Below, one piece after another: positions 44,223 through 53,200 of a DNA stretch of 64,000 nucleotides. The position numbers and the translations under genes are program-made. The DNA comes from Ascidia mentula (taxonomy: Eukaryota > Chordata > Ascidiacea > Phlebobranchia > Ascidiidae): assembly GCA_947561715.1 (NCBI GenBank), contig OX387198.1, forward strand, positions 11,532,001 to 11,596,000, given 5' to 3'. The notes under the pieces were generated by a model, which saw nothing but the letters and a program-made list of their open reading frames with translations, was not told the DNA's origin and made no database searches. Within the stretch, counting starts at the first letter, position 1; each line of letters starts with the position of its first letter.

Positions 44223-47200
44223 TCATACGTAGTATTCCTTTTCCTTGTCGTGTTTCTGCGCCTTTGCGTCGCGTTTCATCGAACCGTTCTTTACCGCCGT
44301 CACTGGTTTTCCTTTCTTCGGCATTACGCCGTATTGTCGCTCACGCTCGCCGACATTGTACGTCACTGAATCGCGCTTTTTGAAGCGGTACATGACGTAG
44401 AAAAGTAGCAATACACAGCAGGCCGCCGCCGCCGCGATGCCGGCAATCATGGCTGTGGTGACGGCCGTCGCTTGACCAATGTATATCGGACCAGTGGAGT
44501 TGGACATCACTTTCCCTGTGACATCAACCGGTGATGATGACGTGTTGCTCGTGTTGATCATGTTAGCTCCTGGGGCGTCGACCGGGTTCTTCCTGGTTGT
44601 TGATTTGACCTTTCCGTCGCCTCCGGAACTCGCCACTGTGACATCAGGGTCGGTAACAATAGCGCTTGATACGGGGGCCGTTGGAGGCCTTGAGAGGCTG
44701 ACGGTGTTGTTGGCGGAGAAAGCGGGTGGGGAAGGGAACGCCGACCGCGTTGGCGACATTGGTGGAAAAGGCGGCGGTGGCGAAGTGGTGGCACCTTGGG
44801 TTGCTTTAAACCGGTATAAACCGGTTTGCGCGATCGCCAAAGCCGATGCCGCTGATCCTGTCCAATCTGCCGCGACGGTCGTGGGGTTGGGGTTGGGAAA
44901 GAGGTCAGTGTATTCGCCTGGTGTGGTAGTGGATGGGGAAAATAGCAAAACATGTGGATTACTGCCGTGCGTGGAAGCAACAAGCTCATTAATCGTGTTT
45001 GTGTCAGGGAGTGAAGTCGAGTTGGTTCTGTGTGTGGTGTGCGGTATTGGTGCGTTATCGTGCGTCGTGCTTTGTGCGTTAACAGCTGGTGCGATTACAC
45101 GGGGGTGTACAAGGGCCTGCGATTTGGTGGTTTTAAGCGTTTTTATTAAACTCTGACCGGAAAATGTTGAAGAGGGGGCCGCGGTGCCGGATATTGTGCT
45201 GGAGCTTAGTATAGAGGAGGTCGCAGCGTCCAGAGCGCCTGGCGTCGCAAATACAGTTGCCTTTGCTGTTGGAGATTGTTTGTTTAAGGTAGTTGTTGTT
45301 GAGAGTGGGGGTTCCGGTATTGTGGTGGGTTTCGTCGCTTCGGTTGTCACTCTCGTGATTGTCGTTTTAGGTTTGGGCTTTGGTTTTGTTGCGACGTTTT
45401 CTATTGTCCGTAAAGGTTTTCTTGCTGTTGACGTTGTAGATGTTGTTGTGCTGGTGGAGGACGAAGGGGGCTCCTCAGGAGATGGGAATGGATCATTGTC
45501 CACCTCCTCCCGAGTAAAAATATCCAGAACGTCGAAGAAACCCGCATCGAATGTAGGGGGTTCCCCGTGGTCAGGGTCTCTTGCCTCTTGGTCTTCTACC
45601 GGTTCGGTAAAAATTCTTTTTATTTCGTCCAAACCTTCCATCTCGACATCACGATTCCGTTCTTCAGGCACAGCAACAGTCTTATCGTATGCGACCTCCG
45701 CCTCCTCTTCCACGTACAGCGCTTCTTTGTCGTCGACGTCATCATTACTGACGTCATTAGTTGGTTCGGTGGTGGCGATTGGCGGTTTGTTTGTGGTTGT
45801 GGTCACAGGTTTTTGCGTAGTGAAAAATCCCAAATCGAAAAGAAGTCGTTCGACCCCTGATAGCGACCCCTCGTCTCCCCCAGACTGCGCATGCGCGAGC
45901 GACGATGACGTGGCAGTGGTGAGAGTTGTTGTGATTATTTGCGCTTCGCTAAGTTCGGCGGGGACGTTTGTTTCAACGAATAAACCGGCACCTGAGCCTG
46001 TGAAAATAAAAAGTGGCCGTTAGTAAATCCATGTAGGTTGGTTAGAAGCAAAAATAAATTGAAACGGTGACAAAAAATTGTGTTAAGCACCAAAAAGTCT
46101 CAATCTCTCCAAAATAGAATAAGTTTTAGTAAGTATATAGGCCCAATAATTGCAATGCAAAGTGTGGTGTATATTATGTGTAGCGGCGTATCTGACAAAC
46201 TACCAAAGAGTATGAAATAAAACGGTTACAACACATATACATATTTCAGTACTTACTTTATAGATCTCCCACGAAATTATGTCAGCGTGCAAGCAGGCAA
46301 AAAAGAACGTGGTTAAACCAATTCAAATATGTATCGTTCTATCACCATTAAACATGCCACTATGTGTGTGTGCGGCGCATTTTCATTTCTCGCGAGTTTG
46401 ACAAAAACATACTAAAACGCGCCACAATAGAAACAACCTAATAATGTATTGCATATATGTGGTGTATATGGAAGGAAGACTGTCGCTAGTTCGTTGTTGA
46501 GCCGCTGTTGCGACTCACGAGGCCCAAGGAGCTAGCGTTAACAACACCAAGCAGTTCATAACGTTAACAGTCCATTGATGTGTTGCTCGCGTTGCGCCAT
46601 TGCAACCTTCTCGAGGAAAGGAATACACTGGAACGTAACGAGCATGTTTGGTGGTTGTTTGTGGCAATGTGCGGGTGGTGGAGTGGGGACAGAAAGAGTG
46701 GAGCGCACAGTTAGCTAAATCATATCTCACTAGGAATGAACCCTATCGCATTTGTCTCGGCCACACTTGCGTAAAACTGTGAAGGTTTCAAAGCAGTTGT
46801 GCGCAACGGGTACAAAAAACGGTCCACGGGTACAAAGTGATGTTTAATGCCTTCGACAAATATGCGGGTACAGAGTGCTGTTGGAACAGACGCTTGGCAG
46901 TTCTACGCAAGTGTGGTTGACATTACACCTAGTCGCGTATTTTTCATGTGTAAGCTTACCTGAGGATGTAGGGCACATATCCTCGTCGTCACAGTCGTCT
47001 GGGTCGGAACCCTGTAAGGAATTGATCAGATTTAGTTGGACATATTGGTTTACTGTTGATTATCCGTAGGTGTTTTTATTCTCGAACAGGAAAGTTCGCT
47101 CGAACGTTGCCACGCATTAATACTGCTTTTGTCACCTTGTATGCTGGGTTAGGTATTTGCTTTGGTCGCTAAACAGACATCACTTTACTGGTGTTTACAA

Positions 47201-50200
47201 AACTCTTTTGCCATGAGACAATATCTTTTAACTTTTTTAGCTAGACTCAAAGCAAGTTTTTATTGAATCTACTACTGATTTCCCCCAAAAAATTTAAGCC
47301 ACGTAATTGTGACTATTAAATAACCGTTATTTACGCTTACAGACGCTTTACTCTATACTATTCAATATACATTCAACTTTAAGCACTACCCATGAGAGTA
47401 TACGGATAGGATTTAAATTATACGTATTTTCGCTGCGTGAGCTTACATTGGGTATGGGAGTGGACTTGGTGGTTGAAAAGACGGTCAGTGTCGCCATGGT
47501 GGTAACTGGTTGGGAAATGGTCGGGGTGGTTGGAGATATGTCAGGACCACCTATACGCGTAACGTCACAGAAAAACTGGACGCGCTCGTCGCCTGAAAAA
47601 GTTGTGGAGTTTTGTTATTGGTTTGATGGCTGGCTTACATGCTTTCGGGCTTTCAGTGAAAATGCAGAATCACTGTTGAATGAAAACAATTTCGAATAAA
47701 CCAAAACAGAAAAACATTGGCCGGAAAAGTTGCGAAAAACTAACACGAGTTTAATGTGTAAATATTGCGGTCAAACAAATTTTGAAAAATGCATAAACAA
47801 TGCAGTTGTGCGTACGCAAACAAGTTCACTTACACGATTATTTTACGGTCAGATTCAGCCAAAATGATCTTGCAAAAGTTCAATAGCGCTAAAATTCCAG
47901 CCAAAATGATCACCTTTTGCTGCAAGTTCAAAAACTCGCACATCGTTAAAGAAAAGTCCCATCATTTGACCACGGAAGGGTTTGGTCAATGTCCTTGCAC
48001 AGTTTGGCTGCTCGAGGATGGACATGGCGCTGTCGCTCAACAGTCCGCCGATCTGGATGGTGGACTGTGAGTTGAACACGGACGCCACACGCTCTGTTCG
48101 AATCGGGCAACATGGTTAAGATATTTGCAAGCGCGGAAACATATCTTGGCAGCAAAGTTGGGGTTGGTTTAGAGCAATTTTACACATGACTCTAGCGTCT
48201 GTAGTTTCTTTACTGATGCATGTAAGTCAGTTATATGATGAGCCGACGTTGTGTTAGTCTGTTATTAATGGTTAAGATGAAACAGGCAAAGTTATTCAGG
48301 CACATTCACGTTCACAACGGCCCGCTAAGGACCTGGTTAGGACACACACACACACAAAAACACCCACACTCGCACAGAAACAGGCGGAACACATTTTCGC
48401 TAGCAAAAAAAAACACTTGATCGAAAGTATTGTTAGCGGTATCTACCTTTGCCGCGCAGCCACGAGGCCACCGTGTTACGGGCCGCCGGCGCTATGGTGG
48501 GGCTGATAAGGGCTAAGCGGGTGCGTGCTTTCCCTGAGACAAATAAGAGAAAAGAGAAATGGTAAGAGTTAGCGAGCTGATGCACACGCAGACGAGCAAG
48601 CGGGGCAGGCAATTAGTATCACGATTTTTTTTCCGTAGCCGTCGTTGAACTTGTTGCTGAAACCGGCATTGCTCGTCCGACAGCGCTGCCATTCTGCAAG
48701 CTGTTAGTTGTATGATTTTCGTGCAAATCCAACGGGTTAGGGTTAGAAGACATAGCGGTTGGTTCGGAACACAGCCAAACATGCACGTGTTAATGCGGAG
48801 CTGGTTAGTAGATAACAAAACAAATTTTACACGTTCTTCTAAATTTTGTCTTGTATGCTATGATCTTCTAAAATTCTAAAAATTATTTTTTAAATTAATT
48901 GGCTGAAAAGCACCCTTGCTTCTTTCTACACCACGTGAAAGTTGTCTCGAATTGCAAATTTTATACAAACTCTAACAAAAACAATACAGAAGTTAAATCC
49001 CATATGTGTAAAACCAAAAAAACTACGCTTTGGGAACAATCACAAACACGACGCGATTCCTACTCACCAGATGGCGCCACACTCTTCTCTGGCCAGTGGT
49101 CGACCCGCATGGTGGCGTTCAACCACATTCGTTTGATCTGCACAGTGTGGTAACTTCCATCCGACACGGGCGTGTTCTCGCGTAGTTCCACGGTACGCCC
49201 TCCTCCAACATTGTATCGCAAGGTAAGTTTTCCGCCTTCCTACAAGCGTCACGGAAAGGAGGAACGTGTAAGTTTATTAATTGGGACTAAAAAGCCTTTT
49301 GGTAAAATGCGACGCAAGCTGAACCGCTCTAAAACCTGATGGCATGTGTTAATTTCGAAACGAAAACTAGATTTTTTCCAATTCCTGACGTTGAAAGATT
49401 TGCTTTGCGAAAAGCTCATGTGCAAAAAATATGAATTTATTACAATGTTTAAACCAAAGACGTCAGCCGAAATATGATTTTCGTGTTTACTTCAATGACA
49501 TTCGTTCCAAGCAAACACGCTTTTCGTGTTTTAGGGGATTGCAATTATAACACCCGGCTTCATCAACAGTTGGTGTCGGTTCAGCTTGTGTCGAACCTTT
49601 AAGGTTAAGTTTGCATGCCACGAAAACCACGCCCAGCACATGCGCTCTCCCGCTCTGCCAGGCAGCCGTGACACCGTCTCTGTCCTTTCTTCACCAGCAT
49701 TTTTTACCTTAACCCCAATCAATTAAGAACGTTCGAGTTACCTCAAAGCATAAACAAACCTAACCCAATTTTTAAGCGTACGTTTAGCGCGATTTACCTT
49801 AATTACCGCGCAATAAGACTTTAACAACGCCCGTAGCAGACTGACAGCGAATCACGCATGAGCCGTAAAATGAAAGCATTGTCAACGGACTTGGACGTCG
49901 TTATGACCTTCGAGCTATGGAATATGTGTTAGCGGTCACTCACACACACACACACGCACACACACACGGAGACAGAGATTCGCACGCACACACCGAACAG
50001 AGCATTCGAGATGCAAAAAACCCGACAACGTCGTTAAAACCAAGCCGCCAATCACGGCAACAAGAATAGGAATGCAAAAAAAACTCTTGAAACCAGCGCC
50101 AAACTCCATGCAGCGACCAGAATGGAAAACCGACATTTAATCAAATGACAAAATATGCACATATGGCGATAACGGGTCACGGAAGCCACGCTTACAATGC

Positions 50201-53200
50201 TGAGACGAAGAAAGTCTTTGGGAGGCCTAAGCATGGCCGAGAGCACAGACAAGAGCACGGCGTCTTGCTCGGTTGTAGCGAACTCAATTTTTAGCGCGTC
50301 GTAACGCACACTGCGCAGTGGCAGCTCTGAGACGATTAGGCCGCCGTTGAAGAGGTAAGCGGAAGAGCTCAAGTGTTCTGGTGGCCGCCATAATACAAAA
50401 CAAAAAGTACATTGTAAGGGTAGGGTACAGTAAAGCTAAAACGGCGGTTCTCAGTCCCACGTCCCAAAACTCTGCTATATGTAACCGGTTTAATCAATAT
50501 CATATAGGCACCACATCGAATGAAGTCACGATCTTTGGGCAAAGGGTGTGTTGTTTTTTGGACTTTTTAAAAACTTCCTAATTATCATGTGAATGTTATG
50601 AGGTTAAAAACCCAATCGTTAATTGTTTGGGTTTTTTTGTACCCCGGCCAGACTCCAGGGAAATGCACCCGCGAGCATCACAGCGCGCGCGGGGGCTGTG
50701 GGACTGAGAAGGCGTTCGCCGACACACACTCACGATCGAAAGCTGTAGAAAGTCCTGCTCGGGCGGGTTTGTATAACCGCTCACACGCAGAATTACGCAG
50801 TTTCTCTGCGAGGTGGCAAAACCGAGACCCAGTTTGTCGGTTCTGGTACTGGGATAGTCGTCCCGCCAGTTGTACAGTATTAGCCCAGTATCGACACCGA
50901 AGCGATAGCTATGGTCATCTGCAAAACCACACCACGTACGGTATTACTGTCATGGCCGTGGCAATGGATCTACGTGGACCTTTGGGATAGAATATAATAG
51001 ACAACCCCGACGTCACAACCTTTGGTATAGAGTTAATATATGGAGTTTGGATGCAGCGAGGACTTTGGTTGCTGCGCAATGGTGGTAAAATGTTGTATGA
51101 CATGCACACCATGCAGAAAATCCGGCACACCATGCTTTACTTCACTGATCAACTGATCAACAGGTTTTTTAGGTAAAACTTTGATTTTTCAAACACGAAA
51201 TGAAATGGTGAATTAGCAAACAAGTTGAATATTTTCATCGCCTCGTCTTTCATTTAACCAATGTTATACGAATAATCCAGTTAACCTTTCTAATCAGGTG
51301 GAAAATGATTGAAATTATGTTGTATCGAGAGTTTCTATAATGACAGGTAAGTTGGAATTACTTTTATAAGTTAACGTGGTGGAGTAACATGGTTACATAT
51401 GCAAAATGGCGAAATTGAATAAATACGAATCCCAAAGATTAACAGGAAAAGGGGGGCGATGTTATCATTGCTCTTTAAAAATTCTATACCATTTTTCATA
51501 TACAATATAAGTGTTCCGTATTTAGACAACAAAAGCGTCCAATCGGGTAAGTCGTATTAGTGAGGAATAACGTGTCACAAAACACTAGGACGGGTGACGT
51601 ATTTTGAAAAGTGTTCTTGAGTTCGCTGTAGCGTGCGTTCGCGACCACGTGACCGGGCGGCGTGTCGCACACAGCAGCAAGCGCCCAGTGCATGCGTTCT
51701 GTCGGAATACACAGCGCCCGGGGAAGTCACGGGCACTCGCATGAAAAAGAGAGAAGCGTGAGTGTGGCAAGGAAAAAAGGCGGCACAGCACTCTCTCGTT
51801 TTGATTTGCTTACCGGTTAGTGTACTGACGTCTTAATTGTACCGGAAAAAATAAATATTGGTTATGATATGTGAGTGGCGGACGTGTATTCAAGTTGGCC
51901 TCTTATATACAGACTATCAATAGGTCTGATCTGAAGTTATTAGATAATGGAATGTTAGGTTGATGGCAACATGAAACATCTGTGCGTTTTTTATGTACAA
52001 AAACAGTGAAGAACTACTGGAAATACAATTAAATAAACTGGAAAGTTGAAAATACATGAAACTAATTTAATTATTTCTCCACAGTTTGCATTTTTTATGA
52101 AAAGTATACGAGCCAACTTTGCTAGTTTTGAAACATTGAATTTACCCGGTACTTTAAAGTAAAAGGATCTACTTCTGTCAGGCATTTCATAATACAAGCT
52201 CTTACATATAGACAAAACGTTATGACAAAAGCGAACGCAACTTACGTTGTTGGCATTTTCGGCCCACATACGAGGTAAGACTGCAGTCACATATGTAGCC
52301 GTCCCACTGTTGGATGCAAATCCCCCCGTTACTGCATGGGCTTGGTGAGCATGACGGTGACGGCTCTGAACAACCGGAAAGAAATTTTCGATAAGAGGAA
52401 TATTTTAGGCTCGTCGGAACGAATGATTTGATAGCTCGTAAAATTATAAAGGGATTGAAATTCGATTTGTTATTGCGTAAATTCGACAGTTTGTAGGAAA
52501 TGGATAATACGTAGCCCATTCTATTTAAAAATGTGAATACTATATGATGCAGTTATATATTATGTTGCCAAAAAAGAAATCTGCTTTCGAGGATTTGATG
52601 CAAACAGTTAGTTTGTTGTGTAAATTTCACTTTCCAATCCCTTATCATACAACTTGTTTATGTTGCATCTAAATATAACAACGTCAAATTGCTCAATTTA
52701 TTTCAAATCAATCATTCTTACGCAAGCAGCCGACACCGACGTCACCGACAACTTTCTTGCCACTGGTAACTGTCATATCCTGCAACACGCCGTTGATTTC
52801 AAACGATCCCATGCAGCCCTGGAAACCGATTCTGGAAGCCACGCTGACCAGCAAATCGTCTCTCCGGTAAAAGCTTGATGGCACACCGCCCACGTACAGC
52901 TTTCCTGTAAAAAATCAGTTGTCAGCAAACCGGCAGTAGTTTGGCATGGCAAGACTCGTCCAAGCCACAAACGTAGGATCAAATTTACAGTGACTTGTAT
53001 TTAATCGTATTGTTTGTATAGGATTTTTACCATGATTTTACAATGCATTTACTGCTCAGTCAAAGGCATGAAAGCAATACAGTTCGCATGTTACGTGCAG
53101 GAAAAAATGAAAAACCGTTTATCTGACTCAATATCAAGTACTATGCACATAATGATCGAGAATTTTGAACAATATAAATTTTCCAGCGTTCCTCCTTTAC

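Follow-up and report, generated by a model that had tools for sequence, protein, structure and literature searches.

The window, i.e., the whole stretch of 64,000 nucleotides (nt) analyzed here (contig OX387198.1 of assembly GCA_947561715.1, positions 11,532,001 to 11,596,000 of the forward strand), derives from the ascidian Ascidia mentula and carries an alpha-neurexin gene on its minus strand. Two neighboring exons of this gene, A and B, each encode a version of the first part of the LNS6 domain and are the subject of this article. One such gene was delineated by tblastn with the neurexin of Phallusia as query; the genome as a whole comprises 195.8 Mb in 79 contigs, and translated searches of it covered all six frames. 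The matches lie on one strand, extend from LNS1 to the C terminus, and make up three consecutive LNS-EGF-LNS units (six LNS and three EGF domains), as is characteristic of alpha-neurexins. The EGF matches lie at 81332-81234, 62412-62214, and 52365-52246; LNS1-LNS3 and EGF1 are situated past the high end of the window, and the part from EGF2 to the C terminus (EYYV) within it. In the last exon, ...KEKEYYV comes after a hydrophobic stretch, and the Phallusia alignment runs to the final residue. The predicted transmembrane helix and C-terminal PDZ-binding tail of an alpha-neurexin are, thus, also present. Over EGF3-LNS6, the best protein matches are those of Phallusia mammillata (74% identity) and Ciona intestinalis (55%), whose neurexins have the domain order, a microexon, and the SS4 segment in common with the Ascidia mentula gene. 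The organism is, by these matches, nearer to Phallusia than to Ciona. One contig bears the mitochondrial COX1, whose reading frame stays open with 7 of 8 mitochondrial or alternative codes; table 13 (AGR as Gly) is the single code that yields glycine at sites such as GGFGNWLLP and DPGGGGDP, where COX1 glycines are conserved, in agreement with an ascidian.

Exons A and B are bounded by AG/GT sites, enter in phase 1 and leave in phase 0, and both end in LSI, in all of which, including the coordinates (Table 1), the first-pass annotation of the sequence was right. Both introns concerned are GT-AG. Either exon alone keeps the reading frame, with or without the microexon upstream of the pair. Inclusion of both yields ...LSI-N-T-stop, meaning a stop two codons into B, again irrespective of the microexon. 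Skipping of both shifts the frame into a stop. With the microexon and SS4 included, this stop lies within the SS4 exon, at position 123 of the test peptide; with SS4 skipped, it lies at position 104, on the next junction. The proposal that exactly one of the two must be chosen is, therefore, true of the reading frame. Because their lengths (185 and 182 nt) are not multiples of three, neither exon can act as an in-frame cassette of the SS4 type. A and B are neighboring homologous exons with equal phases and intact splice sites, and two or none of them give no full-length protein, both of which are among the defining features of a mutually exclusive pair.

The homology of the two exons was assessed by reciprocal searches of the whole genome. 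Exon A matches itself and B only (E 0.27, 41% identity over residues 22-62), and exon B matches itself and A only (E 0.37, 43% over residues 22-61), with two candidates, both scored, in each case. Taken singly, these E-values are modest; but the match sits in the next intron, on the correct strand, and with the correct phase and ends. By arithmetic, a match of E 0.27 in 2 x 195.8 Mb has a chance of about 1 in a million of landing, with the strand also agreeing, in the 1,494 nt that precede the next exon. In the alignment of A with B, 23 of 55 residues are identical (42%), the first ~20 residues are weakly alike, and no useful similarity is left at the DNA level (words of 7-8 nt only, E 0.37-1.5). 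The notion that both exons encode homologous starts of LNS6 stands in that homology is beyond chance.

Further evidence comes from a neurexin profile that was built from five proteins (Phallusia, Ciona, two fish, and one sea spider), with A and B left out. Among 2926 open reading frames of the 84-kb region, it ranks A first (E 2e-28) and B second (E 0.0045), followed by a third frame at E 0.67. The score of B (17.1 bits) was reached by none of 2000 shuffles of B, the best of which attained 5.2 bits. Searched alone against PDB sequences, exon B gives eight matches at E <= 10; each is a neurexin, and each is weak (E 0.14-1.6). When joined to the next exon, B finds neurexin-1-alpha with a whole-chain E of 1e-34 and a best single domain (1e-11) that is LNS6 of that chain, and A finds the same protein with E 1.4e-42; these values owe much to the common exon. 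With the Pfam model Laminin_G_2, LNS6 built with A, B, or neither scores 82.6, 81.6, and 61.6 bits, respectively; the corresponding values for Laminin_G_1 are 45.9, 46.7, and 30.4 bits. The laminin-G signal contributed by B is as large as that from A, which is taken to reflect selection acting on the protein segment encoded by B; on these scores, B appears to have been maintained as a coding exon. The profile and Pfam scores, thus, bear out that B is a tandemly duplicated LNS6 exon that still encodes a laminin-G segment. The duplication, the phases, the frame logic, and the coding integrity of A and B are directly visible in the genome. Neither the profile ranking of open reading frames in the 84-kb region nor sequence comparison revealed a third copy of the exon. 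No other duplicated exons of neurexin are found among the tblastn matches (cut-offs of E 0.05 with Phallusia and E 0.001 with Ciona as query), a search that misses B itself and in which equally diverged copies are, hence, undetectable.

Table 1. Exons and related features of the Ascidia mentula neurexin gene around the A/B pair (positions within the window)
Feature	Positions	Strand	Basis
EGF3 exon, 120 nt, donor phase 1, common upstream exon	52246..52365	-	tblastn and exon model
Microexon HVSTLT, 18 nt, phase 1 at both ends, located between EGF3 and the A/B pair	51814..51831	-	splice-candidate score and Phallusia/Ciona proteins
Exon A, 185 nt, LNS6 start in version A	50734..50918	-	sites, phases, Phallusia/Ciona records
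A-B intron, 356 nt	50378..50733	-	sequence
Exon B, 182 nt, LNS6 start in version B	50196..50377	-	sites, phases, homology searches, laminin-G score
Common LNS6 middle exon, begins in phase 0, ends in phase 1	49068..49239	-	exon model and tblastn
SS4-equivalent exon, 87 nt, phase 1 at both ends, skippable in frame	48447..48533	-	exon model and tblastn
Last LNS6 exon (VFNSQ...IGG), holds the residue aligned with the Ca2+ ligand Asn212	47914..48093	-	exon model, tblastn, alignment
Last-exon open frame: Ser/Thr-rich stalk, transmembrane helix, cytoplasmic tail to EYYV	44226..46019	-	open reading frame and tblastn

The frame of the last exon starts with ~330 Ser/Thr/Pro-rich codons (46019-45027, minus strand) that are without a Phallusia counterpart, the Phallusia protein aligning with this exon only from 45026 on; the extra codons possibly represent a longer or optional stalk. 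Downstream of neurexin, a 453-residue open frame on the minus strand (2099-741) matches Pfam MFS_1 with E 1.2e-17 and marks a transporter-like gene. An identical 56-residue translation (PGVHGPPRGPRRR...) occurs at 12133-11966 and 5245-5078, both on the minus strand, and indicates a repeated element.

The microexon upstream of the pair has a candidate score of 24, the next candidate reaching 8, and is flanked by AG and GTAAGC. At its position, the Phallusia and Ciona proteins read HVSTLPE and HVRTLPE, respectively, with equal length and the pattern HV.TL. The fish neurexins compared are without this segment, and the microexon may, hence, be an ascidian feature. The junctions that had been predicted from EGF3 directly to the pair (52246 to 50918 and 52246 to 50377) are probably not the main ones, since the 18-nt microexon probably intervenes.

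The suggested comparison with related genomes was made at the protein level. Exon A shares 85% identity with the corresponding segment of Phallusia over 60 residues and 54% with that of Ciona over 61. Exon B shows 41% identity to the Phallusia segment over 39 residues and is, thus, the more diverged copy. The neurexin records of both species, which are representatives of 90% clusters (the Ciona one standing for 16 sequences), contain the A-type segment; the A form is, hence, present in both, and the B form was not found. A query of B plus the next exon gave three candidates, none at E <= 0.001, and of 32 candidates for a full-length query scored over B, not one reached E <= 10. When the full-length query was scored over EGF3-LNS6 with A, E <= 0.001 was reached by 8 of 936 candidates. 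Pattern matches in prokaryotic (5) and viral (18) genome contigs were not confirmed in any case. From these identities, either the duplication would predate the split from Phallusia, or B would have evolved faster. Exon A ends in ...PPEQDFLQLSI and B in ...PPKDFLRLSI, compared with PPTQDYLQLSI in Phallusia and GLEDYLMLHI in fish. The endings of A and B are closer to Phallusia than to fish, which, on few residues, suggests that the duplication arose within the ascidian line.

The frame logic is the one enforcement of exclusive use that the locus itself demonstrates. The A-B intron is not too short to be spliced, and steric exclusion is, thus, unlikely. Complementary intron sequences, for which a search had been suggested, were not found when five intron pairs were scanned locally for gapless helices: the best helices were matched by 25-95% of 100 shuffles, and no pair was above chance. 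In whole-intron duplexes of three pairs, the A-B intron with the intron after B was more stable than all 60 of 60 shuffles, and the other two pairs were not; this signal is not relied on, as such duplexes were judged unrealistic and the local scan was taken as the better test. Counts of binding motifs gave nothing reliable. Splice sites of 13 exons were scored on a home-made scale. Herein, the weakest donors are those of A (1.4) and B (1.8), the latter value being shared by a candidate LNS4 exon, and the weakest acceptor is that of B (-0.9), followed by those of the microexon (-0.7) and the last LNS6 exon (0.0). Weak donors of A and B and a weak acceptor of B are as expected of regulated exons. 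The choice would probably fall to trans-acting factors that act on weak splice sites, A being the default. For Ciona, no KHDRBS (Sam68/T-STAR) homolog is reported in the relevant passage of PMC3636136, so that the vertebrate regulators of SS4 are probably missing too.

Taken together, A and B are likely to be mutually exclusive exons that originated by tandem duplication in the ascidian neurexin gene and whose exclusivity is enforced at least by the frame. An ancestral LNS6 exon would have been duplicated in tandem within the gene, and each transcript would proceed from EGF3, with the microexon, to either A or B and then to the common LNS6 exons. The products would be two LNS6 domains that differ in ~60 residues and are alike in fold and in the Asp that serves as a Ca2+ ligand. 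Double inclusion and double skipping would lead to early stops and, presumably, to transcript decay. LNS6 binding would probably be tuned or changed independently of SS4. We infer that both A and B are expressed, that their choice is regulated, and that it has an effect on ligands. Several observations weigh against this interpretation. No B-type protein was found among the cluster representatives (the Ciona one standing for 16), and no enforcing mechanism other than the frame emerged among intron pairing, a beta-like first exon, and intron length. The acceptor of B is poor on the scale mentioned above. In addition, the codon score, which favors B in that its coding frame is its best and lies above 350 of 350 intron windows, misjudges A, which is certainly coding, by favoring a wrong frame and by letting 10 of 350 intron windows reach A, and is, thus, weak evidence.

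B might instead be a poison or cassette exon that is added after A for its premature stop and lowers neurexin output. This is improbable: the stop two codons into B after A and the weak splice sites of B would suit such an exon, but it would need neither an open frame from EGF3 nor laminin-G sequence. B has both and restores the laminin-G score as fully as A does. No better placed is the view of B as a dead or dying duplicate that has lost its splicing. While the lack of a B-type protein among the cluster representatives and the greater divergence of B from Phallusia (41% over 39 residues versus 85% over 60 for A) are in line with decay, B retains 61 open codons, intact splice sites and phases, and its laminin-G score; at 42% identity to A (23/55), an unused exon should have lost its frame by that age. 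A promoter-linked choice, with A in the long alpha form and B in a short beta-like form transcribed from a separate promoter located between the two exons, is very unlikely, since, although the first exon of vertebrate beta-neurexin sits just upstream of LNS6, no ATG exon ending at a plausible phase-1 donor occurs in the A-B intron or the microexon-A intron, and the one in the EGF3-microexon intron encodes 13 residues that are not signal-peptide-like; such an exon might lie farther away.

Neuroligins bind to neurexin through LNS6, as do LRRTMs in vertebrates, where SS4 is known as the splice switch of this domain. With A and B as a mutually exclusive pair, the segment exchanged can be compared with the known ligand contacts. 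In human Nrxn1-beta (-S4), as described in the passages of PMC6160412 on these contacts, Ca2+ is coordinated by the side chains of Asp141 and Asn212 together with main-chain atoms from Val158 and Ile210. Neuroligin bonds are made by Ser107 and Arg109 in rat/mouse, which are Ser111 and Arg113 in human, and Arg206 and Leu208 are other contacts, to LRRTM2 (PMC6160412, same passages). The exchanged exon spans Ser111, Arg113, and Asp141, where Ser, Arg, and Asp are aligned in A and B alike; the positions of Arg206 and Leu208 lie in constant exons. Compared with A, B has a shorter turn before the Ser-x-Arg stretch, has lost Tyr/Trp and Asp residues there, and contains a different segment before the Asp. 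By this alignment, B would probably retain the Ca2+ site and differ in the surrounding loops, and we would expect it to tune or change specificity around the kept site rather than to abolish binding. In the common exon at 48093-47914 (minus strand), the counterpart of Leu208 is Ala in both Ascidia mentula and Phallusia, which fits with the reported lack of LRRTM in tunicates. The passages of PMC3933685 on these families describe LRRTM genes as not found in tunicates and report putative cerebellin orthologs for the sea squirt. The original idea of a ligand switch through exchanged LNS6 strands is, hence, weakened: neuroligin contacts do lie in the segment, yet Ser111, Arg113, and Asp141 are kept by B, and the LRRTM part is inapplicable in tunicates, which are reported to lack LRRTM.

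It is conceivable, if somewhat doubtful, that ascidians switch the main ligand domain of neurexin by exchanging much of the LNS6 fold, instead of or besides using SS4, so that two faces with a common Ca2+ site would provide a second, independent tunicate route to ligand diversity. If true, a second LNS6 switch of ~60 residues would exist in a close invertebrate relative of vertebrates, and LNS6 diversity would have evolved more than once. A simple chordate nervous system would then allow a direct comparison of two LNS6 faces in partner choice.

Mutually exclusive exons as such are well known; their place in LNS6 appears to be new, and no description of such exons in neurexin LNS6 was found among the open-licence papers searched. 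Against novelty, passages of PMC1397879 state that human neurexin genes undergo mutually exclusive splicing, with at most three variants, and leave the exons unspecified. The pair resembles the mutually exclusive tandem duplicates of SNAP-25 exon 5 and arthropod Dscam in being composed of neighboring homologous exons of near-equal length and equal phases. As in exons of that type, the length is not a multiple of three, and two or none break the frame. In the docking/selector model, exclusive splicing is achieved by competing intron pairing, none of which was found for A and B in the local scan. With SS4, the pair has in common that LNS6 is spliced alternatively, and an SS4 exon is also present here. 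For the SS4 exon in Ciona, the relevant passage of PMC3933685 reports skipping in none of few expressed sequence tags. SS4, however, is an insert that is either in or out, whereas A and B represent the exchange of a 60-residue part of the fold.

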